Position numbers and translations under genes: made by a program
Part shown: in pieces, positions 49,721 to 64,000 of the stretch
Position numbering within the stretch: the stretch's first letter is position 1
Layout of the letters: each line of letters starts with the position of its first letter
Assembly (NCBI RefSeq): GCF_030818905.1
Contig: NZ_JAUTAZ010000001.1
Location: forward strand, 1,054,001 to 1,118,000
Direction of reading: 5' to 3'
Length of the DNA stretch: 64,000 bases
Origin: Microbacterium sp. SORGH_AS_0888
GTDB lineage: Bacteria > Actinomycetota > Actinomycetes > Actinomycetales > Microbacteriaceae
The notes under the pieces: model-generated
What the model was told of the DNA's origin: nothing
The model's input: the letters and a program-made list of their open reading frames with translations, nothing else
The model's database searches: none

Positions 49721-49765
49721 CGACGTCTCCTCTACTTGTCTGCGGACTTATGTTACAGTTCGTAC

Positions 49766-49813
49766 GTGTCCACCCTCGCACTCCTCCTTCTTCGCCGCCA
49801 CGGCGGGGCATAG
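49766..49813 (+). CDS. leu leader peptide (attenuator)
   Basis: A 15-codon open frame GTG...TAG encoding [15 protein letters not shown] with five leucine codons, four of them consecutive (CTC CTC CTT CTT). It sits 74 bp before leuA. Tandem codons of the regulated amino acid are the hallmark of attenuation: ribosome stalling on them when leucyl-tRNA is scarce would favour leuA expression. Confidence 0.75.
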
Positions 49814-49854
49814 CCGGACCGGCTCCCCGTCGTGGAGCCCAACGCTGCGCCGGT
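49804..49854 (+). promoter_or_regulatory. leuA attenuator RNA structures
   Basis: Mutually exclusive pairings after the leader codons: CGGGG/CCCCG with GCC/GGC (49804-49829), GGCTCC/GGAGCC (49821-49826 with 49834-49839), and ACCGGC/GCCGGT (49818-49823 with 49849-49854). They share bases, as terminator and antiterminator forms would. No T run is seen. Confidence 0.5.
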
Positions 49855-49887
49855 CACCTCCCGTACCGCACTGAAGGAACCGACGAC

Positions 49888-51690
49888 ATGGACACGACCA
49901 CCCCCGCCTGGAACCGGCAGCGCCCCTCCGGCATGCCCTCGCACCGCTACGCCGACGTCTACTCACGCGTGGACATCCCCCTCACCGACGCCGAGCGACG
50001 GTGGCCGACCCGCCGGATCAGCCAGGCGCCGCTGTGGGTCCCGGTCGATCTGCGCGACGGCAATCAGGCTCTCGCCGAGCCCATGGACCCCGCCCGCAAG
50101 CGCCGGTTCTTCGAGCTCATGGTACGGATGGGGTACACCGAGATCGAAGTCGGCTACCCGTCCGCTTCCCAGACCGACTACGACTTCGTCCGGCTCATCG
50201 CGGCCGGCGGCCTCGCCCCCGACGACGTCACGATCGTCGTGTTCACCCCGGCACGTCGAGACCTGATCGAACGGACCGTTGAGTCGATCCGCGGCATCCC
50301 CAACGACGTCGTCATCCACCTGTACACGGCCACCGCGCCGACCTGGCGCGACACCGTGCTGGGCAAGGACCGCACAGAGCTGCGCGAGCTGATCCTGGCG
50401 GGCGGGCGGGACGTGTGGGAGCTGGCGGGCGACCTGCCGAACGTCCGGTTCGAGTTCTCGCCCGAGGTCTTCACCCTGACCGAGCCCGACTACGCCCTCG
50501 AGATCTGCGACGCGATGACCGAGCTGTGGGAGGCGCGCCCCGACCGTCCCGTCATCCTCAACCTGCCCGCCACGGTCGAGGTCGCCACGCCGAACGTCTA
50601 CGCCGACCAGATCGAGTACATGCACACCCGACTCGCTCGCCGGGATGCGGTCATCCTCTCCGTGCACCCGCACAACGACCGCGGCACGGGTGTCGCGTGT
50701 GCCGAGCTGGCGGTCCTGGCCGGCGCCCAGCGCGTGGAGGGCTGCATCTTCGGGAACGGCGAGCGTACCGGCAACGTCGACCTCGCGACGCTCGCCCTGA
50801 ACCTGCACGCGCAGGGCGTGGACCCGATGATCGACTTCTCGGACATCGACGCCATCCGCCGCACGGTCGAGCACTGCAACCGCATCGAGATCCACCCTCG
50901 CCACCCCTACGTGGGAGATCTCGTGCACACCGCGTTCAGCGGCACCCACCAGGACGCCATCAAGAAGGGCTTCGCCGAACATCGGGCGCGCGCCGCCGCC
51001 ACAGGTCGGCCCGAGCGGGAGATCGACTGGCGTGTCCCCTATCTCCCGATCGACCCCGCCGACATCGGGCGCACCTACGACGCCGTCATCCGCGTCAACT
51101 CGCAGTCCGGGAAGGGCGGCATCGCGTACCTGCTCGGCGCCGAGTACGGCATCGAGCTGCCCCGGCGCCTGCAGATCGACCTCTCCCGCCGCGTGCAGCA
51201 CCACACCGATGCGACCGGCGACGAGGTCACCGCTGACGAGATCTGGGCGATCTTCACCGCCGGCTATCTGACCGAGTCCGCCGACGGCGCTGTCCGCCTA
51301 GCGGCGCTGCGTGTCGACGAGGCTGCCGCCCTCACGGAGGTCACGGTCGTCGTCGACGGCGTTGAACACCACCGCGCGCACGAGGGAACGGGGCCGGTCG
51401 ACGCGATCGTCCGCACGCTCGCCGAGGTCGGAATCGAACTGGAGATCCTGTCACTGCATCAGAGTTCGATGCGTTCCGGGGCGGATGCCGATGCCCTCAC
51501 CCTCGTCGAGTACCGCTCCTCCGACGGCCCTGCATGGACCGCCGGACGCGACGGCTCGACGCTGAGCGCGACCGTCGACGCGGTCGTACGCGCCGCGAAC
51601 GCCGTGGCCGCCGCGCAGCCCTCGGCGCAGCGGGTCTCCGCCGCCATCACGACGGCGCCGCGGCGAGGAGCCGATCGATCTCGGCGGTGA
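49888..51690 (+). CDS. leuA: 2-isopropylmalate synthase
   Basis: A 600-residue LeuA. The HMGL-like TIM barrel has [21 protein letters not shown] (metal/acceptor site), [34 protein letters not shown] and [22 protein letters not shown]; the C-terminal LeuA dimer domain (about 430-565, [28 protein letters not shown]) binds leucine for feedback control. It condenses 2-oxoisovalerate and acetyl-CoA, the first step of leucine synthesis. AAGGA precedes the ATG. A leucine-rich leader peptide upstream suggests attenuation. The 3' end overlaps the convergent amidohydrolase by 44 bp. Confidence 0.9.
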
Positions 51691-55249: not shown

Positions 55250-55933
55250 TCAGTGGTCCCGGTCCTCGATCCGTCGTCTCACTCCGTCGATGACGAGATC
55301 GACCTTCTCGATCCACCAGGTGCTCGGGACGCCGGGTTCACCCATGGCGTCGCGGAGGGCGTCGACGTACTCCGACGCCACGGCACCGCGCCCCGTGACG
55401 GGTCCTGCCGCCTCGATCGCGGCGAGCGTACGCTCGCGAAGGGTGCGCTCGCCGTCCACCCGACGGTCGAGCGCAGCCACGGTCAGATAGGAGTCGGCGG
55501 TCATGTCCCCGATCGTGTCGACGACGAGCGCGGCCTCCCTGACCGGGATCCCGAGCCGCCGATGGAGATACTCGACCACGCGATAGGCCTGGGATGCGAG
55601 GCTCTCCGGTGCGGACATCGCACCGCGAAGACGCTGGGCGAGCCCCGGCGTCGACGAGAACATCGTCCACATGGTGTGCGCGCACTCCCGCAGGTACTGC
55701 GCCCAGTCATCGCCCGGCTCCGGCCAGACCGCACGGTCGACGGCGACCTCGACCGCCGCGTCGAGCATCTCCTCACGGTTCGCGATGTACCGGTAGAGCG
55801 TGGACTGGTCGACGCCGAGCCGATGGGCCACCGCCGAGGTCGTGGCCCGATCGAGCCCGAGCTCCAGCACGGCGTCCAGAATCGCCGTGCGAGAGGTGAG
55901 CGGCGGTCGTCCGCGACGAGGTGAGGTCGACAT
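55250..55933 (-). CDS. TetR-family regulator beside the PKS operon
   Basis: A 227-residue TetR protein starting MSTSPRRGRPPLTSRTAILDAVLELGLDRATTSAVAHRLGVDQSTLYRYIANREEML, with a C-terminal domain of the TetR_C type (ECAHTMWTMFSSTPGLAQRLRG). TACGAT (55941-55946) ends 7 nt before the ATG at 55933, which supports that start over two upstream ones. Its base composition is host-like, unlike the lower-GC operon it faces. It is the only regulator next to the polyketide operon, so it is the prime candidate to control it. Confidence 0.8.
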   Translation of the reverse strand: MSTSPRRGRPPLTSRTAILDAVLELGLDRATTSAVAHRLGVDQSTLYRYIANREEMLDAAVEVAVDRAVWPEPGDDWAQYLRECAHTMWTMFSSTPGLAQRLRGAMSAPESLASQAYRVVEYLHRRLGIPVREAALVVDTIGDMTADSYLTVAALDRRVDGERTLRERTLAAIEAAGPVTGRGAVASEYVDALRDAMGEPGVPSTWWIEKVDLVIDGVRRRIEDRDH

Positions 55934-56057
55934 CCGATTCATCGTACGTCGCAGCCGCGGGACGGACGGCGCCATCCAACGATTAAGCCAAGGCTACAGG
56001 TTCGAAAACGCGAGCGGTGACGCCTGTCTACCGACGACCCGAACGAGGAGTTCACGT

Positions 56058-57548
56058 ATGCCCCACCGCAAGAAGTTGTCCGCGGACGTCCTGGTGGTGG
56101 GTGCTGGGCCCTCCGGGCTCTCTCTTGCCACAGAGTTGGAGCTCCGTGGCATTTCTGTCGTGCTCGTGGACCGTGAGCATCGTGCGACCCCCGAATCCCG
56201 GGCCTTGGGTCTGACGATCGGCACCCTGGAGTATCTGCTCTCCCGAGGCCAGATCGGCAGGTTTGGAGAGCTTCGAGGGCGCGACCAGGTGCACTTCGCC
56301 GGATTCCCACTCTCAACGGCCGCGATCCCATCTGATCTCTCGCCCGCGATCGAGGTCCCTCAGTTCCGCACCGAGGAGATCCTGACAGCGTGGTTGGAGG
56401 AAGCCGGCGGTTCGATCACTCGAGGCCAGGAGCTCATCGACTTTTCACAGAACGATGACGGCGTAGTGAGCCTGCTGGCCGACGACGATGAGGTTCGGAC
56501 GGAAGTGAAGTCGAAGTTCATCGTGGGGTGCGACGGTTCAAAGAGCACCGTCCGTTCGATCGCAGGCCTCGATTTCGAGATCTCGAAGCCCTCCGTACAA
56601 ATGCTGCTTGGCGACTTCCTCGACAGCGACCTCTCCGACAACCCGTTCGGCAAGAGGAACGAGCGCGGCATGGTCATGTCGGGACCGATCGGTAACGGCG
56701 CGGTACGAGTCATCGTCGCGGAGTTCGGTGCTCCTCTTCTTGAACGTGGACAGACGCTCGAAGGAGAAGAGATCGCGGACGCCTACGAACGCGTGCTCGG
56801 TGAGAGGTTCACCTGGAAGGCCCTTCACTGGGGCAGCTCCTTCACCGACTCGTCGGGTCTGGCCGAGTCGCTTGTTGACCGACGCGCGATCCTCATCGGC
56901 GACGCCGCACACATTCACCTTCCTGCGGGAGGTCAGGGGATGAACGTGTCCATCCTGGATGCGGCGGGGCTTGGCTGGCGGCTCGCCCAGGCCGTTCGTC
57001 ATGACTCGCCAGATCTCCTAAGTACGTTCGATGACGAGAGGTCGGCTGCGGCGCGCGCTCTCATCACGAACACGCAGGCTCAAGGGCAGCTCTTCCTGCG
57101 TGGCGCCGAAGTGGACTCGCTACGAGGGGTGTTCGCGACACTGCTCGATGAGCCTCGCAGTGCCGCGAAACTCGCGCGGGCGGTGAGCAGCATCGACGTC
57201 AAGTATGCCTTCGATTACGCGGAGGACGACGACGCGATTGGGTGGCAGGCGCTGTCGGGGAGCTTCCCCGCTGTGACGCGCGAGGAGAAAGCCTCCGGTC
57301 TGCAGAGGAACGGCGAATGGTTGTTCGTCTCGACCGATAGGCCCGATCCGGAGCAGAGCGCTCTGCTGACGGGTGCCGATGTCCGTTGTCTTGAGACGAG
57401 CGCCATCCTGCTCGAGACGGGACGAGGGCAACAGGATCGCCTCGCGGTCCTGTTGCGTCCCGACGGTGTCGTCGCATGGACCGATCGTACAAACGCTTCG
57501 ATCGATGCGGTCCTTCGCCATTGGGCCATCGGAATCGATCACGACTAA
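56058..57548 (+). CDS. FAD-dependent aromatic monooxygenase of the PKS operon
   Basis: A 496-residue class A flavoprotein monooxygenase (PheA/TfdB type). FAD motifs in order: VLVVGAGPSGLSLATELELRG, IVGCDGSKSTVRSIAG (DG motif) and AILIGDAAHIHLPAGGQGMNVSILDA (GD motif), plus a C-terminal thioredoxin-like tail. Relatives hydroxylate or oxidise polycyclic aromatic polyketides. GAGGAG lies 7 nt before the ATG. It is the first gene of the low-GC operon and is followed 15 bp later by the cyclase. Confidence 0.85.
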   Translation: MPHRKKLSADVLVVGAGPSGLSLATELELRGISVVLVDREHRATPESRALGLTIGTLEYLLSRGQIGRFGELRGRDQVHFAGFPLSTAAIPSDLSPAIEVPQFRTEEILTAWLEEAGGSITRGQELIDFSQNDDGVVSLLADDDEVRTEVKSKFIVGCDGSKSTVRSIAGLDFEISKPSVQMLLGDFLDSDLSDNPFGKRNERGMVMSGPIGNGAVRVIVAEFGAPLLERGQTLEGEEIADAYERVLGERFTWKALHWGSSFTDSSGLAESLVDRRAILIGDAAHIHLPAGGQGMNVSILDAAGLGWRLAQAVRHDSPDLLSTFDDERSAAARALITNTQAQGQLFLRGAEVDSLRGVFATLLDEPRSAAKLARAVSSIDVKYAFDYAEDDDAIGWQALSGSFPAVTREEKASGLQRNGEWLFVSTDRPDPEQSALLTGADVRCLETSAILLETGRGQQDRLAVLLRPDGVVAWTDRTNASIDAVLRHWAIGIDHD

Positions 57549-57563
57549 GAAAGGAATCGCTCC

Positions 57564-57899
57564 ATGCCGCTTCACACGTCTCTCATCGTCGCAAAACTGA
57601 ACACGGATCGGCTCGACGAAATCGGAAACCTGTTCACCGAGTTCGACCGATCACACATGCCAGAACGAATGGGCACCGTGCGGCGGCAACTCTTCACTTT
57701 CCACGACCTCTACTTTCACCTGCAGGATTTCGAGACCGAAGACGGCACTGATCGCATCGAATCCGCAAAGACGGACCCGGCTTTCGTGCAGATCAGCAAG
57801 GATCTTCGCCAGTACTTCGAGCCCTATGACCCGAACTGGCAGAGCCCGAAGGACGCGATCGCGAACCGCTTTTACCACTGGGAGCGTTCTCGTGGGTGA
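57564..57899 (+). CDS. TcmI-family type II polyketide cyclase
   Basis: A 111-residue protein of the TcmI/ActVA-like cyclase family: LHTSLIVAKLNTDRLDEIGNLF, FDRSHMPERMGTVRRQLFTFHDLYFHLQDF and FEPYDPNWQSPKDAIANRFYHW, with the YDP/W..P elements typical of the family. It directs ring closure of aromatic polyketides. AAGGAATCG precedes the ATG. The stop overlaps the KS-alpha start by 8 bp. Confidence 0.9.
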   Translation: MPLHTSLIVAKLNTDRLDEIGNLFTEFDRSHMPERMGTVRRQLFTFHDLYFHLQDFETEDGTDRIESAKTDPAFVQISKDLRQYFEPYDPNWQSPKDAIANRFYHWERSRG

Positions 57900-59160
57900 C
57901 CGGCTTGACGCGATCGTCACAGGCGTAGGCATCGTCGCACCTGGAGGGGCCACCCGGGAGAGCTTCTGGGAAAACACGCGCCGCGGCCAGCCTGCGACAA
58001 GGACAACCACGCTCTGCGATCCTTCTCCGTTCCGGTCAAAGATCGCTGGTGAGGTGGACTTCGACCCGATCGCCGGCGGACTCTCTTCAGAAGAGGCTGA
58101 GTTTCTCGATCGTGCTGCACAACTCCTCGTTACCGCGGCCGCCGAAGCGGTTGCGGACTCGAGCGGAGCTCTAGACGATGTGCGTCCTGAGCGAATCGGC
58201 GTCTACATCGGGTCAGCGGTGGGAGCAACGATGTCGATGGAGGAGATATACCGGCTCACGTCACGAGACGGTGAACTGATTGAGGTCGACGAGATCTTGG
58301 ATCGTGACCTCTACCAGTACTTTGTCCCCAGCTCGTTCGTGGCGGAGATCGCCCGCCGGTTCGGGGCTCGTGGACCGGGAGAACTGATCTCGAACGGTTG
58401 CACCTCGGGTATCGACGCGCTTGCTCAAGCGATGGAGGCAGTGCGTCGAGGCGATGTCGACGTAGCGATCGCAGGAGCGACGGAAGCCCCGATCGCACCG
58501 ATCACCTTCGCGTGTTTCGACTCCATCATGGCTACCTCCAATCTCAACGACACCCCCGAGTCGGCATCTCGGCCCTACGACGCCACGCGCGCGGGCTTCG
58601 TGCTGGCAGAAGGCGCCGCCGTGATGATCGTCGAAAGCCGTGAGCACGCAGAGCGTAGGACCGCGAGTACATACGCCACCATCTCCGGCTACGGTGCTCG
58701 AGCGAATGCCTTTCACATGACGGGCCTGAAGAACGACGGCACCGAGCTCGCGGAGGCTATCTCTGCCTCGCTCGCCTACGCCGGCATCGAACCTGATCAG
58801 ATTGACTACGTCAACGCGCACGGCTCGGGTACCACCCAAAACGACATTCACGAGACAGAGGCGATAAAGAAGGCGCTGGGGGCGCGGGCCTACGACGTAC
58901 CAGTCAGCTCACTGAAGTCAATGACGGGGCATTCTATGGGCTCAATCGGTGCGATCGAAGTGGCGGTATGTGTCCTCGCCATCCGGGACAGCTTTATCCC
59001 GCCGACCGCGAACCTCAATGAGATCGACCCTGTTCTCGACCTCGACTACGTGCCGAACGAGGGCCGCTCGGAGAAGGTCGATCGTGTGGTGTCGATTGCG
59101 AGCGGGTTCGGCGGGTTTCAGAGCGCACTCGTGATCGAAAGGGCTGAATATGCCGAGTGA
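57892..59160 (+). CDS. type II PKS ketosynthase alpha
   Basis: A 422-residue KAS II-like condensing enzyme with the full catalytic set: Cys170 in ISNGCTSGIDALAQA, His310 in YVNAHGSGTTQND, Lys342 and His347 in SSLKSMTGHSMGSIGA. With the chain-length factor and ACP it forms the minimal PKS that iteratively extends malonyl units. GGGAG lies 7 nt before the GTG at 57892. Its 3' end overlaps the chain-length-factor gene by 11 bp, the usual coupling of this heterodimer. Confidence 0.95.
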   Translation: MGDRLDAIVTGVGIVAPGGATRESFWENTRRGQPATRTTTLCDPSPFRSKIAGEVDFDPIAGGLSSEEAEFLDRAAQLLVTAAAEAVADSSGALDDVRPERIGVYIGSAVGATMSMEEIYRLTSRDGELIEVDEILDRDLYQYFVPSSFVAEIARRFGARGPGELISNGCTSGIDALAQAMEAVRRGDVDVAIAGATEAPIAPITFACFDSIMATSNLNDTPESASRPYDATRAGFVLAEGAAVMIVESREHAERRTASTYATISGYGARANAFHMTGLKNDGTELAEAISASLAYAGIEPDQIDYVNAHGSGTTQNDIHETEAIKKALGARAYDVPVSSLKSMTGHSMGSIGAIEVAVCVLAIRDSFIPPTANLNEIDPVLDLDYVPNEGRSEKVDRVVSIASGFGGFQSALVIERAEYAE

Positions 59161-60352
59161 ATCGCACGCTTGGATCTCCGGAGTGGGCGTGGCAAGTCCT
59201 CATGGCAGCACCGTCACGAAACTGTGGCGGAGCGCGCTACGCGGTGACGTCACCATCAACGAGGTCAGTGCATTCGACGCATCGTCTTACCGTGCCTCGC
59301 TGGGGGGTGAGGTATCAGACTTTTCTCTCGAGGACGTGCCAGGGATGCTCCGTCCCCGTACCGACCGCTCCACCCAGCTGGCGCTCGTCGCTGCCCAGCG
59401 TGCCCTTGAGAGCGCGGCCGATGACTATCACCAAACGGACCCGTATCGCCGTTCCATCGTGACGGCAAACTCAGCCGGCGGGTATGCGTTCGGCGAGAAA
59501 GAGCTACGCCATCTCTACCAGAGGGGCCCTTCGTACGTAAGCACCGCCCAGTCTTACGCCTGGTTCTACGCGGTAAATACTGGGCAGCTTTCCATTCGAT
59601 ACGGCTTCAAGGGGAGGTGCTCGACGCTCGTCGCTGATTCGGCCGGCGGACTCGATGCGATCTGGGAGGGCGCGCGTCTGCTGCGTCAAGGCCAGGAAAT
59701 CGTCCTCGCGGGAGCAATCGAGAGCTTCTTCTCGCCATTGGCGTGGGTATCCATGGAAAGTACGGGTCGGGTAAGTGAGCGGCGCAATCCCTCAGAGTCG
59801 TATCTTCCCTTCGACGAACGCGCAGGAGGATTCGTTCCAGCTGAAGGTGGCGCCTATCTCCTCCTAAGTCCAAATCGACCTGATGAGAAGGTCGGCAAAG
59901 CGCTTCGCATCAGCGGTCACGGTAAGACGATGACGGTTGACGAGCTAGGTTCGCAGGCGCTTGCTAGAGCGATCCGACTCGCGCTGGAAAGTGCGGAGCT
60001 GACGCCGCAAGACATCGATATCGTCTTCGCCGACGGAGCCGGAGTGAAGTCCGAAGACGATCAGGAGGCAGCGGCGATCACTGAGGTCTTTGGAGAACAG
60101 GGCGTCCCCGTAACCGCGCCGAAGACTGGCTTCGGTCGCGCCGGCTCGGGAGTGGGCGCTCTCGATTCCGTACTCGCGGCGCTCACATTGCGGTCCAAGA
60201 CGATCCCTCCGACACCCGGGGTGTCCATCAAGAACGGAACAGGACTCGATCTCGTTACGGCTCGCAGGAAGCTACCATCTGCGCGTCATGCGCTTGTATT
60301 GGCGCGCGGAGTGCCGATATTCAATTCCGCGCTAGTCATCAGCGCGGAATAA
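59150..60352 (+). CDS. type II PKS chain-length factor (KS beta)
   Basis: A 400-residue KS homologue lacking the nucleophile: the active-site region reads LVADSAGGLDA with Ser164 where KS-alpha has Cys and where most chain-length factors have Gln (EQAGGLDA). The later catalytic His motifs are also lost (VFADGAGVKSEDDQEAAA, APKTGFGRAGSG). It sets the number of extensions and primes by decarboxylation in this family. The product length cannot be inferred by eye. It overlaps KS-alpha. Confidence 0.9.
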   Translation: MPSESHAWISGVGVASPHGSTVTKLWRSALRGDVTINEVSAFDASSYRASLGGEVSDFSLEDVPGMLRPRTDRSTQLALVAAQRALESAADDYHQTDPYRRSIVTANSAGGYAFGEKELRHLYQRGPSYVSTAQSYAWFYAVNTGQLSIRYGFKGRCSTLVADSAGGLDAIWEGARLLRQGQEIVLAGAIESFFSPLAWVSMESTGRVSERRNPSESYLPFDERAGGFVPAEGGAYLLLSPNRPDEKVGKALRISGHGKTMTVDELGSQALARAIRLALESAELTPQDIDIVFADGAGVKSEDDQEAAAITEVFGEQGVPVTAPKTGFGRAGSGVGALDSVLAALTLRSKTIPPTPGVSIKNGTGLDLVTARRKLPSARHALVLARGVPIFNSALVISAE

Positions 60353-60389
60353 CCCGACATAACCCACCACAAGCAGGGAGAAGGAAGCA

Positions 60390-60671
60390 ATGAGTACGAA
60401 CATCGACATCAAGGACGTCTGGACCGCGCTGGTCGAAGGTTCGGGCACAGACGACGCGGACGCCCTCCTCACCGCACTCGAGACAAGGTCCTTCGACGAA
60501 CTCGGGTACGACTCGCTGGCCGTCCTCGAGACGGGGCTGCGGCTGCGCCGCGACAGTGGTGCCGATGTCCCCGACACGCAGATCGCCAACGCCCAGACGG
60601 CCCAGGAGCTGATCAACCTGATCAACTCTCACCTCCCGGCGAAAACCGCCGAAGGGGCACAGCAGCAATGA
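60390..60671 (+). CDS. type II PKS acyl carrier protein
   Basis: A 93-residue ACP with the phosphopantetheine site FDELGYDSLAVLETGLRLRR (Ser42). AGGGAGAAGGAAGCA provides a strong ribosome site before the ATG, fitting the high ACP demand of the system. It lies 37 bp after the chain-length factor and overlaps the ketoreductase by 4 bp (ATGA). A phosphopantetheinyl transferase is not seen in the window. Confidence 0.95.
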   Translation: MSTNIDIKDVWTALVEGSGTDDADALLTALETRSFDELGYDSLAVLETGLRLRRDSGADVPDTQIANAQTAQELINLINSHLPAKTAEGAQQQ

Positions 60672-61468
60672 GCATTCCCAACACGAGAGCGAAGGAAGAG
60701 CCCGCAAGAACTGCGGTCGTCACCGGCGGGACGAGCGGGATAGGACTGTCGATCGTTGAGCGACTGGCCACCTTGGGATACCGAATCTACTTCTGCGCAC
60801 GATCGGCGGATGCTGTTCGTGACGTCCAGGAACGATTCCGAAAGGAGGGCGTCTCGATCGAAGGAACCACCGTCGACGTGTCCAACTCTTCAGAAGTGGA
60901 CTCCTGGATCACATCGATCTCTGAACGAGAAACCATCATCGACGCTGTCATCAACAACGCCGGAACCAACGGTGGAGGTGAGCTGGGCAACATTAGCGAT
61001 CAGGATTGGAACCGTATCCTGTCGACAAACCTCAACTCTGTCTTCTTTGTCACACGGGCCCTGTCCCGTGCGGATCTCATCCCCGACTTCGGGCGCATCG
61101 TCAACATCGCTTCCACTGCCGGCAAACAGGGGATCGCATATGCGACGCCATACTCGGCGTCAAAGCACGCGGTGATCGGCTTTACCAAGTCGCTCGCCAA
61201 AGAACTCGCTCCGCGTGGCGTCACCGTCAATGCGGTATGCCCCGGATATGTGGAAACCCCCATGGCTCAACGCGTTCGAGAGGGGTATGCCGAGCACTAC
61301 AAGAAGACCGAGGCGGAGATCCTCGACACATTCTCGGCCAAGATCCCGCTGGGACGTTACAGCACGCCCGAGGAGGTCGCTGGTCTCGTGCTCTACCTAC
61401 TGACTCGAGATGCGGCGTCGATCACTGGCCAAGCTCTGAACGTCTGCGGCGGCCTGGGCAACTACTGA
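60668..61468 (+). CDS. polyketide ketoreductase (SDR)
   Basis: A 266-residue short-chain dehydrogenase: NADP motif VTGGTSGIG (19-26), NNAGTNGGG, Ser149 in VNIASTAGKQG, and YSASKHAVIGF with Tyr162 and Lys166; it ends with GQALNVCGGLGNY like actIII-type polyketide ketoreductases. In reduced aromatic pathways this enzyme usually reduces the C-9 ketone of the nascent chain. Its presence indicates a reduced, actinorhodin- or angucycline-like first-ring pattern. Confidence 0.9.
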   Translation: MSIPNTRAKEEPARTAVVTGGTSGIGLSIVERLATLGYRIYFCARSADAVRDVQERFRKEGVSIEGTTVDVSNSSEVDSWITSISERETIIDAVINNAGTNGGGELGNISDQDWNRILSTNLNSVFFVTRALSRADLIPDFGRIVNIASTAGKQGIAYATPYSASKHAVIGFTKSLAKELAPRGVTVNAVCPGYVETPMAQRVREGYAEHYKKTEAEILDTFSAKIPLGRYSTPEEVAGLVLYLLTRDAASITGQALNVCGGLGNY

Positions 61469-61482
61469 ACGGACAAACTCGA

Positions 61483-62412
61483 ATGATCGAACGAGAAACC
61501 GCCCACGAGATTCGTGTCGAGGCCCGCGCTGAGCGTATCTACGACTTCCTCTCGGACGTAACTCGGTGGGCTGACATCTTTCCGCCGACCATATACGCCG
61601 AGCGAGTGGAATCGTCCGAGCGTCAGGAACTCATCCAGATCTGGGCGACGGCAAACGGCACCGTACGCACCTGGCGATCCCGCCGTACCTTCGAACCGGA
61701 GAAGCTGCGAATCACGTTTGCTCAGACGCAGTCCGCTGCGCCGGTGATCGAGATGTCGGGAACGTGGGAAATTCTCGCTGAGGGAGAAGGCACCTCAATT
61801 GTGAAACTCGGGCATGCCTTCACCGCGCACACGAAAGACGACGCCGACTTCATCGATGCAGCCGTAGACACGAACAGTCAAAAAGAGCTGGAATCTCTCC
61901 GAGAGTTCTTCGCGGTTCCGGAGGCTGAGTATCTACATGGACGTGTCGAGGAAGCGCTGCCGGTGTCAGCGTCGGCAGATGACGCGTTCGAGTTCCTTCT
62001 TCGAGCCGATCGATGGGCTGAGCGGATTCCGCATGTCGTCGATGCGACCCTGACGCGGTTCGACACCGGTGGGGAGCTACTCCGGCTCGTCACGCAGGCG
62101 AAGGATGGATCCACCCACGAGACCGCTTCGTATCGTGTGGTCTTGTCTGATTCGTCGATCGTGTACAAGCAGATAGAAACCCCTGGAGCGCTAGTCAGCC
62201 ATCGTGGAGAGTGGCACGTCTTCGCGGAAGACGGCCAGACGTTCGTGAAGAGCGTGCATGAGTACGCGGTAACCCGGGCGACTGTGACGAATCTCCTCGG
62301 CCCGGAGGCCTCACTCGCCAAGGCCATCGAAATCGCCGGCACGAACCTTATGCACAACAGCACGCAGACGATCAAACTGATCGGCTCTACAACCGCGAAG
62401 GTCGCTGAGTGA
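61483..62412 (+). CDS. di-domain aromatase/cyclase
   Basis: A 309-residue protein with two START/polyketide-cyclase-like halves. Half 1 (about 1-145): HEIRVEARAERIYDFLSDVTRWADIFPPTIYAERVE. Half 2 (about 155-300): EEALPVSASADDAFEFLLRADRWAERIPHVVDATLTRFD. Di-domain aromatase/cyclases dehydrate and aromatise the first ring of C-9-reduced polyketides, which fits the adjacent ketoreductase. The stop overlaps the next monooxygenase start (GTGA). The ribosome site is weak. Confidence 0.85.
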   Translation: MIERETAHEIRVEARAERIYDFLSDVTRWADIFPPTIYAERVESSERQELIQIWATANGTVRTWRSRRTFEPEKLRITFAQTQSAAPVIEMSGTWEILAEGEGTSIVKLGHAFTAHTKDDADFIDAAVDTNSQKELESLREFFAVPEAEYLHGRVEEALPVSASADDAFEFLLRADRWAERIPHVVDATLTRFDTGGELLRLVTQAKDGSTHETASYRVVLSDSSIVYKQIETPGALVSHRGEWHVFAEDGQTFVKSVHEYAVTRATVTNLLGPEASLAKAIEIAGTNLMHNSTQTIKLIGSTTAKVAE

Positions 62413-63788
62413 CGCAGACTCAAGCGCATGTCGACACTGAGGTGAGCGTGATCGGAGCGGGACCAGTCGGCTCCTTGCTCTCCGGGATACTCGCCCTCAA
62501 CGACATCGACGTGTGCATCTTCGACGAGAGTGTCGACGTCCTCGAAGGTCCGCGTGCTATGGCTGTGAACGCCCGCGCGGCGCAGATCTTCGATGTTCTC
62601 GATCTCAAGGATGGTCTCCTTACGGCGTCGCCGTCCGCTTTCGGCCACTACGGGCGCCAGAAGGTGGATCTCGGTTGCGTTGACACTCCGTGGCCCGGAA
62701 TGTGGCCGATTCTTCAACAGGCCCTTAACCAAGCGCTGATCGATTGGGCCCTCGAGGCGGGTGCACAACTCGTGCGCGGCACACGCTACCTGTCGTCGCG
62801 CATGCGCCCTGACGGCATGGTCCACGCTGCCTTCAGCGGCAGCCTCATCAAGTCAAGCAGCTCCCGCATCTTGGTCGGGTGCGACGGTGAAGACAGCGCG
62901 GTGCGCTTGTGGACGGGAATGGGGCAGACAGCGGTCGCCGGTGAGCGACGGTTCGTCACCGCGAATGTGCGTGCTGCAGACATGCCGACCTACAGGTTCG
63001 AGCCGTTTGCCGACGGGGCTGTGGTCAGCTCAGGACAGATCGAAGATCAGCTGCACCGGATCATGATGCATGTTCCCGCTGCGGCACCCGCTATAACTAC
63101 TGCGCGCGACGTGGAGATTGCATGGGCCCAGACGACGGGGGCACCGCTCCAAGGGAAGGTCCTCTCGTGGGGGTTACAAACGGACCGCAGAGTTGTGTCG
63201 GATTCGTTCCGTGACGGCGAGGTCGTCCTCGCCGGCGACGCGGCTCACAGTCAGCTTCCCGTGGGTGGGTGCTCGCTCAATTACGGGATAGAGGACGCCT
63301 TCAACCTCGCCTGGAGGATCAAGCACACCATCGACACAGGCACGTCGCGATTGCTCGATGACTATGCTGCCGAACGCAAATTCGCAGCGCGGCGACTCCA
63401 CGAACTGGTGAACACACAGGTGCAGGAGCTCTACGAGACTTATCTAATCGATCGTGGCTCGGCCGGTACGTCGTCGGCCACGGGAGTACAAGACCCAGCC
63501 GCGTTCCTCTCAGGTACTGACATCGACTATTCGTCGTGCGGGACGAATACCGAGAAACTGCTGTCGCCTGCCAGAGTCTCTCTTACTCACTCGCAGCTAC
63601 TCGGACTTAAGGACGCGCAAAGGTCACTCCAGTACAGCCGCATCGGCTCAATTGATGGATCCTTCCGGGCTTCTCCGTCACTGCAGAAGCTGCGCAACAT
63701 CGAGCAGCGTTCCGAACTCCATGGTCCGACTTCGGATCAGGACTTCCTTCTCGTGCGACCCGACGGGTACGTGCTGACCAATGCTTAG
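62409..63788 (+). CDS. second FAD-dependent monooxygenase of the PKS operon
   Basis: A 459-residue class A flavoprotein monooxygenase: VIGAGPVGSLLSGILALND, LVGCDGEDSAVRLW and VVLAGDAAHSQLPVGGCSLNYGIEDAFNLAWRI, with the C-terminal LLVRPDGYVLTNA common in polyketide hydroxylases. It has the same architecture as the first monooxygenase but is clearly divergent, so the two probably act at different positions or steps. GTG start coupled to the aromatase/cyclase gene. Confidence 0.85.
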   Translation: MTQTQAHVDTEVSVIGAGPVGSLLSGILALNDIDVCIFDESVDVLEGPRAMAVNARAAQIFDVLDLKDGLLTASPSAFGHYGRQKVDLGCVDTPWPGMWPILQQALNQALIDWALEAGAQLVRGTRYLSSRMRPDGMVHAAFSGSLIKSSSSRILVGCDGEDSAVRLWTGMGQTAVAGERRFVTANVRAADMPTYRFEPFADGAVVSSGQIEDQLHRIMMHVPAAAPAITTARDVEIAWAQTTGAPLQGKVLSWGLQTDRRVVSDSFRDGEVVLAGDAAHSQLPVGGCSLNYGIEDAFNLAWRIKHTIDTGTSRLLDDYAAERKFAARRLHELVNTQVQELYETYLIDRGSAGTSSATGVQDPAAFLSGTDIDYSSCGTNTEKLLSPARVSLTHSQLLGLKDAQRSLQYSRIGSIDGSFRASPSLQKLRNIEQRSELHGPTSDQDFLLVRPDGYVLTNA

Positions 63789-63815
63789 ACACAGTCTAAA
63801 AAAAGGGAGGTGAAT

Positions 63816-64000
63816 ATGACGACGCACATCGCCATCGCCCCAGGCCATGCATCATCGATGAATGATGTAATGCGGCGACTTGAGCACTATATCAGTATCC
63901 CTAATCAGCGAAATTCCATCACGGCCCTCTCGCGCGATGCTGGCTTTGACCTGAAACGCGCTCTGGCCGCATACGGAAAGGCAGAGCCTCTAGCGAATCG
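63816..64000 (+). CDS. start of a probable acyltransferase-like gene (cut by window edge)
   Basis: GGGAGG precedes an ATG at 63816; 61 codons follow to the window end (MTTHIAIAPGHASSMNDVM... DAGFDLKRALAAYGKAEPL). The spacing of IAIAPGHASS and a later GFDL segment recalls the N-terminus of malonyl-CoA:ACP acyltransferases, but the nucleophile region is outside the window, so this is tentative. Base composition is as low in GC as the rest of the operon. Confidence 0.4.
   Translation, partial: MTTHIAIAPGHASSMNDVMRRLEHYISIPNQRNSITALSRDAGFDLKRALAAYGKAEPLAN

Follow-up and report, generated by a model that had tools for sequence, protein, structure and literature searches.

The chromosome of Microbacterium sp. 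SORGH_AS_0888, a single contig of 3,638,259 bases (NZ_JAUTAZ010000001.1), carries a run of 13 genes that probably encodes a horizontally acquired angucycline-type (benz[a]anthracene) polyketide pathway, set within a variable part of the chromosome and built around a gilvocarcin-like core primed by an acyltransferase (AT). The best reading of the run is that it would produce a decaketide angucyclinone, with an AT in place of a priming ketosynthase (KSIII) and without the tailoring genes of the gilvocarcin pathway. The run begins near the right end of the 64,000-nucleotide stretch analyzed here (positions 1054001 to 1118000, hereafter the window), which holds only its first part; the adjoining 38 kb to the right were also analyzed, and positions beyond the window end are given as window equivalents (the coordinate in the adjoining-sequence locus L006 plus 56000). 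While angucycline-type type II polyketide synthases (PKS) are of a known kind, the lineage carrying this one is unusual, its branch is deep, and an initiation enzyme has undergone a clade-specific change.

All 13 genes lie on the plus strand with short gaps or overlaps, from 56058 to 68343 (12343 in L006), in the order E, F, A, B, C, D, L, M, AT1, AT2, MarR, third FAD monooxygenase (mono3), and phosphopantetheinyl transferase (Table 1), the letters following what we take to be the pga/urd naming. Gene content and order, like kinship and conserved motifs, were established directly. The reading frames are open, conserved motifs are found in the ketosynthase (KS-alpha), acyl carrier protein (ACP), and ketoreductase, FAD-binding motifs occur as well, and the gene set is apparently intact; its spacing suggests a single transcript. 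For KS-alpha, the GTG at 57892 is a likelier start than 57826 because it leaves an 8-base overlap with the cyclase stop. The initial annotation, made from the letters of the window, had counted nine genes. Its eight named gene types are confirmed by plus-strand open reading frames, short gaps or overlaps, and Pfam matches (among them FAD_binding_3 at 217.6 and 135.1 bits for E and M), and the run it described is real, but its ninth gene is the start of AT1, cut by the window end, and the run actually comprises 13. Extension past 64000, which it had proposed, recovered the rest of AT1 together with AT2, MarR, the third oxygenase, and the phosphopantetheinyl transferase.

The core is that of a type II aromatic PKS: KS-alpha has Cys170, His310, and His347 in the expected motifs, the chain-length factor (CLF) lacks the cysteine and has a serine at that position, and a discrete ACP, ketoreductase, aromatase, and cyclase lie side by side. 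Most known aromatic polyketides of type II come from Streptomyces and its relatives. The CLF gate residues are Tyr/Gly/Leu (YGL), the same as in the Streptomyces griseoflavus CLF Q7X2H4, which we take to be GilB of gilvocarcin; those of the actinorhodin (Act) CLF are FTF. Serine in place of glutamine in the CLF was considered as a novelty and rejected, as 75 of 121 aligned CLFs have Gln and the others have His (PgaB), Asp, Gly, Glu, Thr, or Ala. The ketoreductase retains an NGGG motif and Ser-Tyr-Lys, and its best PDB match is 3sju_A ("Keto reductase"), presumably HedKR; with the BexL-like aromatase beside it, the initially annotated pairing of a ketoreductase, predicted to act at C-9, with a di-domain aromatase is borne out by similarity (Table 1).

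Gene order ties this core to gilvocarcin-like loci. We compared the run proteins with the reading frames of 44 other CLF loci, 14 of which hold only ∼4.2 kb, so that their flanks are not visible. The genes E-F-A-B-C-D-L-M-AT1-AT2 adjoin one another in the same order in Streptomyces sp. H27-S2 (L012) and Kineosporia rhizophila (L013). A Propionibacteriales metagenome-assembled genome (L041) preserves this relative order but has additional DNA at two places, one between L and M and the other between AT1 and AT2, and an Aeromicrobium locus (L039) runs from E to M as in L041, after which the record ends. Two further loci (L024 and L030) hold most of the set, rearranged and with no M match, while in an Antrihabitans locus (L040) the set, likewise rearranged, includes M and a mono3 relative but no AT1 match. 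Matches to AT1 and AT2 occur jointly in 6 of the 44 loci (L012, L013, L014, L024, L030, and L041). The L012 CLF is 85.2% identical to Q7X2H4. Neighbors of the L012 core include an ABC/UvrA-like gene, an FMN reductase, a regulator with NB-ARC and DNA-binding domains, and a sugar epimerase; near the L013 core are BBE, methyltransferase, EryCIII-like glycosyltransferase, P450, and ABC/UvrA-like genes.

The run belongs to a divergent clade. A CLF protein search that scored 8000 candidates gave, among the best 120 of 3959 matches, 12 relatives at 62 to 94% identity, below which identity fell to 48%. This deep clade includes Glutamicibacter endophyticus (CLF 72%, E 66%, and AT1 54% identical), Leucobacter sp. 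M11 (62%, 49%, and 37%), and metagenome contigs. When the listed matches are paired by the length of the longest contig, CLF, E, and AT1 apparently occur together in 4 cases (lengths 52299, 3516616, 29326, and 798511) and two of the three in 3 more (15966, 13616, and 43671); the three matches of G. endophyticus share one such length, as do those of Leucobacter sp. M11. One clade CLF (P0008), near-identical to another (P0005), lacks 24 residues around the KS-cysteine position, either an assembly artefact or a natural deletion. A 74-row CLF tree unites the 13-member clade with the Q7X2H4/Kineosporia group (93/72), and both sit with Aeromicrobium in a branch supported at 99/99. A 58-row tree, which left out L040, L050, L042, L034, L033, L032, L027, L023, L017, and two KS-alpha outgroups as well as P0008, P0013, P0017, P0094, and P0100 as long, redundant, or superfluous, recovered the branch of clade, Q7X2H4 group, and Aeromicrobium at 100/100. 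A tree of KS-alpha, CLF, ketoreductase, and aromatase from the 23 loci with all four places the run with L012, L013, L039, and L041 at 99/97, on a long branch of 2.0. The initial annotation had raised the prospect of a characterized cluster with identical gene order, which is borne out only in part: the core order is indeed that of gilvocarcin-like loci, but at a CLF identity of 46 to 47%, which makes the run a deep and, as far as seen, uncharacterized branch rather than a known cluster copied over.

The first oxygenase likewise points to an angucycline. Among 100 PDB sequences, E ranks first with PgaE (277 bits) and CabE (274), followed by 4x4j (265), FlsO1 (248), and 6j0z (246), and its top matches include a "putative angucycline-like polyketide oxygenase"; by similarity, a PgaE/UrdE-type oxygenase thus stands beside a di-domain aromatase and a TcmI-type cyclase. 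A 42-row oxygenase tree places E in a 100/100 branch with the E proteins of L012, L013, L039, L040, and L041 and with some Rhodococcus, Nocardia, and other proteins. At the PgaM/UrdM place, M is a very divergent FAD monooxygenase with no SDR domain, which groups with the M genes of L012, L013, L039, and L040 (100/99), its branch being 2.9 changes per column long. Excerpts of one paper describe PgaE/UrdE as C12/C12b hydroxylases and assign 2,3-dehydration to the oxygenase half of PgaM/UrdM (PMC10728087). As M stands alone as an oxygenase, we do not expect a fused reductase to carry out C6 ketoreduction. The third enzyme, mono3, is about equally similar to rifampin monooxygenase (200 bits) and to 4k2x, a "polyketide oxygenase/hydroxylase" (188 bits), and has a 45% identical relative in the Antrihabitans locus.

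The ABM family (JadG/GilOII-type ring opening) has 5 matches in the genome and none near 1.11 to 1.12 Mb, allowing for a relative missed by the model, and ring opening of this type is therefore not expected. No glycosyltransferase, methyltransferase, or BBE oxidoreductase was found among the 13 genes and the neighbors scanned, a scan outside which some small open reading frames fell. Since the run has none of these genes and no ABM ring-opening gene, an unglycosylated, unrearranged angucyclinone is the most likely product. The initial annotation held the product to be unpredictable by eye, a view we revise: oxygenase, aromatase, gene order, and both the CLF and the four-gene trees agree on an angucycline-type pathway.

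The run contains two ATs and no KSIII, and the sole KSIII match of the genome lies away from it at 779323, between a FabD-like gene (182 bits, below the model cut-off of 261) and an intact FabF gene at 780368. A second FabF-like gene elsewhere in the genome (G000:C1:2398122-2399338, L003) is in two frames and is either a pseudogene or a sequencing error. According to excerpts of a review, the gilvocarcin system lacks a priming KS, its GilQ charges the ACP with propionyl-CoA, and ChryQ and RavQ point to AT-centered initiation as a class; among actively loading ATs of this class, the review credits GilQ alone with biochemical support (PMC12664062). AT1 of the run has a cysteine at the position of an arginine in three FabD-type structures, in an alignment that is gapless after the nucleophile motif, while AT2 keeps the arginine. 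We take the aligned residue to be the arginine that holds the malonyl carboxylate (Arg117 in Escherichia coli), removal of which in animal fatty acid synthase reportedly lowered malonyl and raised acetyl transfer.

The replacement is specific to the clade. In a search that scored 8000 AT1 candidates, 52 homologues were listed at an E value of ≤1e-20, the query included; the cysteine is present in all 10 clade members (P0121, the query, to P0130) and arginine in all 42 others (P0131 to P0172). One of the 10 is the Rothia dentocariosa AT1 (P0126), 51% identical to that of the run. At the other CLF loci, where matches of >70 bits were counted and weaker rows excluded (one each in L013 and L040), arginine is found in 6/6 AT1 and 9/9 AT2 matches. 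The serine nucleophile is kept in 53/53 aligned AT rows. Most clade AT1s also have an arginine one residue earlier, P0129 and P0130 being the exceptions. Because cysteine replaces arginine while the nucleophile is kept, AT1 is predicted from its sequence to load or edit a monocarboxylic acyl group.

From these similarities we infer the chemical steps, the starter, and the function of AT1, and a plausible route would run as follows. The phosphopantetheinyl transferase would activate the ACP, one dedicated AT would load a monocarboxylic starter (propionyl, by analogy with gilvocarcin), and the other AT or the host FabD would supply malonyl groups. KS/CLF could then assemble a chain of ten units, which the ketoreductase would reduce at C-9 and the di-domain aromatase and TcmI-type cyclase would fold into the angular tetracycle. 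The PgaE-like enzyme would hydroxylate C-12, and the second and third FAD enzymes may dehydrate or hydroxylate further.

Base composition and distribution both bear on the origin of the run. Per-kilobase GC is 0.65 to 0.77 across the preceding 56 kb, drops to 0.58 to 0.63 from 56001 to the window end and 0.56 to 0.62 over the next 6 kb, and recovers to 0.67 to 0.69 ∼18 kb after the drop. At ∼60% versus ∼71% around it, the run is low in GC relative to its host, as initially annotated and in that relative sense only, and this composition would fit arrival from a donor of lower GC. Third-position GC (GC3) of the run genes is 0.59 to 0.74, compared with 0.88 in a leuA-like gene 5 kb away; the ACP gene alone has a host-like GC3 (0.84), which could reflect replacement or different selection. 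In genus, family, and order sets that are overlapping samples, CLF matches at an E value of ≤1e-40 occur in 1/149 genus genomes (the source genome itself), 4/398 family genomes (the source and three at 41 to 45% identity), and 10/396 order genomes (source included), which upholds the earlier expectation that such synthases are rare in this lineage. The three other family genomes hold a different type II PKS, none of their 20-kb regions showing the E-F-A-B-C-D-L-M-AT1-AT2 order, and two of their CLFs (G500 and G269), whose first gate residue is Asn, belong to a separate branch. A second, separate CLF lineage in the family and in further families of the order (L010, L011, L046 to L049, L051, and L052; 8 rows at 100/100) has Asn as its first gate residue throughout (7 NGM and 1 NGL).

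Several observations weigh against an angucycline pathway of gilvocarcin type. YGL gates also occur outside the gilvocarcin group (L009, L022, L030, and L045) and hence do not prove chain length. The closer join of the clade with the Q7X2H4 group has support of only 85/60 in the 58-row tree, and joining the clade with PgaB/SaqB-type CLFs costs 26 log units (approximately unbiased [AU] test, p-AU of 0.06), which disfavors that arrangement without strictly rejecting it. Identity to characterized CLFs is 45 to 46% (Q7X2H4, 46.1%; Act, 46.2%; PgaB, 45.2%), and because these values are low and nearly equal, identity alone gives no preference for gilvocarcin over actinorhodin. The divergence of M is such that its reaction cannot be assigned. 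A different reduced aromatic polyketide, of aureolic-acid or anthracycline type for example, might draw on the same early enzymes, an ActKR-type ketoreductase with a di-domain aromatase being common to those classes too, and E also matches 4k5r and 3fmw, which we take to be a mithramycin Baeyer-Villiger monooxygenase. The 277 bits of E with PgaE nonetheless compare with 169 and 148 for those two entries and 78 for RdmE, the aromatase is likewise much closer to BexL than to StfQ (204 versus 103 bits), and gene order and trees point the same way, which makes such a product quite improbable.

An angucycline scaffold could also arise with the ATs in other roles. The AT2-position enzymes of gilvocarcin-like loci keep the arginine, yet GilQ loads propionate; the arginine was for this reason rejected as decisive for malonyl specificity, and Arg/Cys alone therefore does not name the starter-loading AT. 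AT1 might instead be an editing thioesterase that removes wrong (acetyl) starters from the ACP, leaving loading to AT2 or KS/CLF. Its retained serine and its cysteine for arginine would suit this role, and the AT homologues ZhuC and EncL remove short acyl groups according to excerpts of the same review (PMC12664062). However, AT1 occupies the place of the arginine-bearing AT1 of gilvocarcin-like loci with no priming KS alongside, and those of its more distant homologues that carry a name are called malonyltransferases and have the arginine; we regard editing as unlikely, although it is the strongest of the competing explanations. That the genes are an old vertical inheritance of the family is very improbable: clade members do occur in several genera (their placement in the Micrococcales is our own), but the few sampled family genomes with a CLF match fall, the source aside, in other branches, and GC and GC3 deviate from the host, so that the vertical distribution at host-like GC considered in the initial annotation is not what we find. 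An acquired angucycline-type pathway with an AT-primed core is thus the explanation we prefer.

Table 1. Genes of the run and the adjacent divergent regulator (window positions or window equivalents)
Feature	Position	Strand	Basis
TetR-family regulator	55250..55975	-	Open reading frame of 241 aa; TetR_N 27.9 bits; divergent from run
E, FAD monooxygenase, PgaE/CabE-like, predicted angucyclinone C-12 hydroxylase	56058..57548	+	PgaE 277 bits, CabE 274
F, TcmI-type polyketide cyclase	57564..57899	+	Cyclase_polyket 128.8 bits; 8is2 74, TcmI 67 bits
A, KS-alpha	57892..59160	+	ketoacyl-synt; Act KS-alpha 442 bits; GTG 57892 preferred start
B, CLF	59150..60352	+	ketoacyl-synt; Act CLF 334 bits
C, ACP, DSL motif	60390..60671	+	PP-binding 30.0 bits
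D, ketoreductase, ActKR type	60668..61468	+	adh_short 193.1; 3sju_A 294, ActKR 263 bits
L, di-domain aromatase/cyclase, BexL-like	61483..62412	+	Polyketide_cyc 54.5; BexL 204, StfQ 103 bits
M, second FAD monooxygenase, very divergent, without reductase domain	62409..63788	+	CabE 137 bits over residues 8-341
AT1, dedicated acyltransferase	63816..64712 (cut by window end at 64000)	+	
AT2, acyltransferase	64754-65725 (beyond window)	+	
MarR regulator	65725-66228 (beyond window)	+	
Third FAD monooxygenase (mono3)	66225-67640 (beyond window)	+	
Phosphopantetheinyl transferase	67624-68343 (beyond window)	+	

The divergent TetR gene, whose start codon is separated from that of E by 82 bases, is a possible regulator of the run; no inverted repeat of at least 7 bases was found wholly within this gap. 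To the right, MarR, BaxI-like, and NmrA-like genes lie on the minus strand, and farther on are a DNA methylase, ParB-like, M23 peptidase, and DUF6112 genes, a TraG-type coupling protein, an integrase, and then tRNA-Pro. In the search for an empty site, 6 regions around the leuA-like neighbor in relatives shared nothing of at least 150 bases past window position 51281, and the amidohydrolase neighbor is present in 1/58 genomes searched, the source genome itself; the insertion boundary is for these reasons undefined. At 49750 to 51687, a second LeuA-like gene adjoins a GntR regulator and has copies of 72 to 75% identity in 7 other genomes (58 searched, source included). The TraG-type coupling protein, integrase, and tRNA-Pro (L053:506-5396, window equivalent 94506 to 99396) mark where an integrative conjugative element ends on its right side. 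Colinear DNA at tRNA-Pro is found in 2/5 fetched relatives (G018 and G022), partial tRNA repeats occur nearby in several genomes of the genus, and in another relative (G013) stretches matching window positions 10.7 to 12.6 and 29.6 to 31.6 kb sit <20 kb from tRNA-Pro. Because a search of the 99 kb on the left side turned up no convincing attachment repeat, we do not claim the run as cargo of an integrative element at tRNA-Pro.

Judged by titles and abstract openings, no paper on a Microbacterium angucycline or type II cluster stood out in the literature, and excerpts of one report describe two Microbacterium sponge isolates as negative in KS-alpha PCR (PMC4589764), an assay that so divergent a clade could escape. 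A coherent clade in small-genome relatives, with its AT also in Rothia dentocariosa, points to other producers. The Arg-to-Cys change (10/10 versus 0/42 of the homologues listed) offers a natural experiment on starter choice in AT-primed synthases, reduced to one testable residue. We tentatively entertain, at somewhat less than even confidence, the wider idea of a separate Micrococcales lineage of angucycline synthases that has reached a human mouth bacterium and in which this one change converted the malonyl transferase of the cluster into one for starter units; initiation would then follow a new logic and yield a scaffold or side chain not described so far.

Besides the homologues in Glutamicibacter endophyticus and Leucobacter sp. 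M11, three known systems come closest to the run. Excerpts of a paper on a Rothia dentocariosa strain whose extract is active against Neisseria report a type II PKS cluster and KS-alpha peptides detected by liquid chromatography-mass spectrometry (PMC10668837); these excerpts name no angucycline or product class, and one listed peptide resembles the KS-alpha of the run by eye only. The likeness, drawn through AT1 and these excerpts, lies in the related AT1 with the same cysteine. Type II clusters of the human microbiome were reportedly the subject of a study in 2019. With the PGA and urdamycin pathways, the run shares its first eight gene kinds, in what we take to be the same E-F-A-B-C-D-L-M order, and the best match of E; it differs in its two ATs and in a CLF that falls outside the PgaB group in the tree, a separation that the AU test does not strictly enforce. 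Unlike the run, Actinomadura loci L016, L020, and L038 have a second oxygenase that matches E and not M. The gilvocarcin, chrysomycin, and ravidomycin systems, compared through L012 and L013 and not through the gil, chry, and rav clusters themselves, are nearest in the order of the ten-gene core, the CLF and four-gene trees, the two ATs with no priming KS, and the YGL gate. The run departs from this type in its CLF (46% identical), in the cysteine of AT1, and in that no glycosyltransferase, BBE, methyltransferase, P450, UvrA-like, or ABM gene was found in it, and it adds an extra FAD monooxygenase, a phosphopantetheinyl transferase, and a MarR gene.

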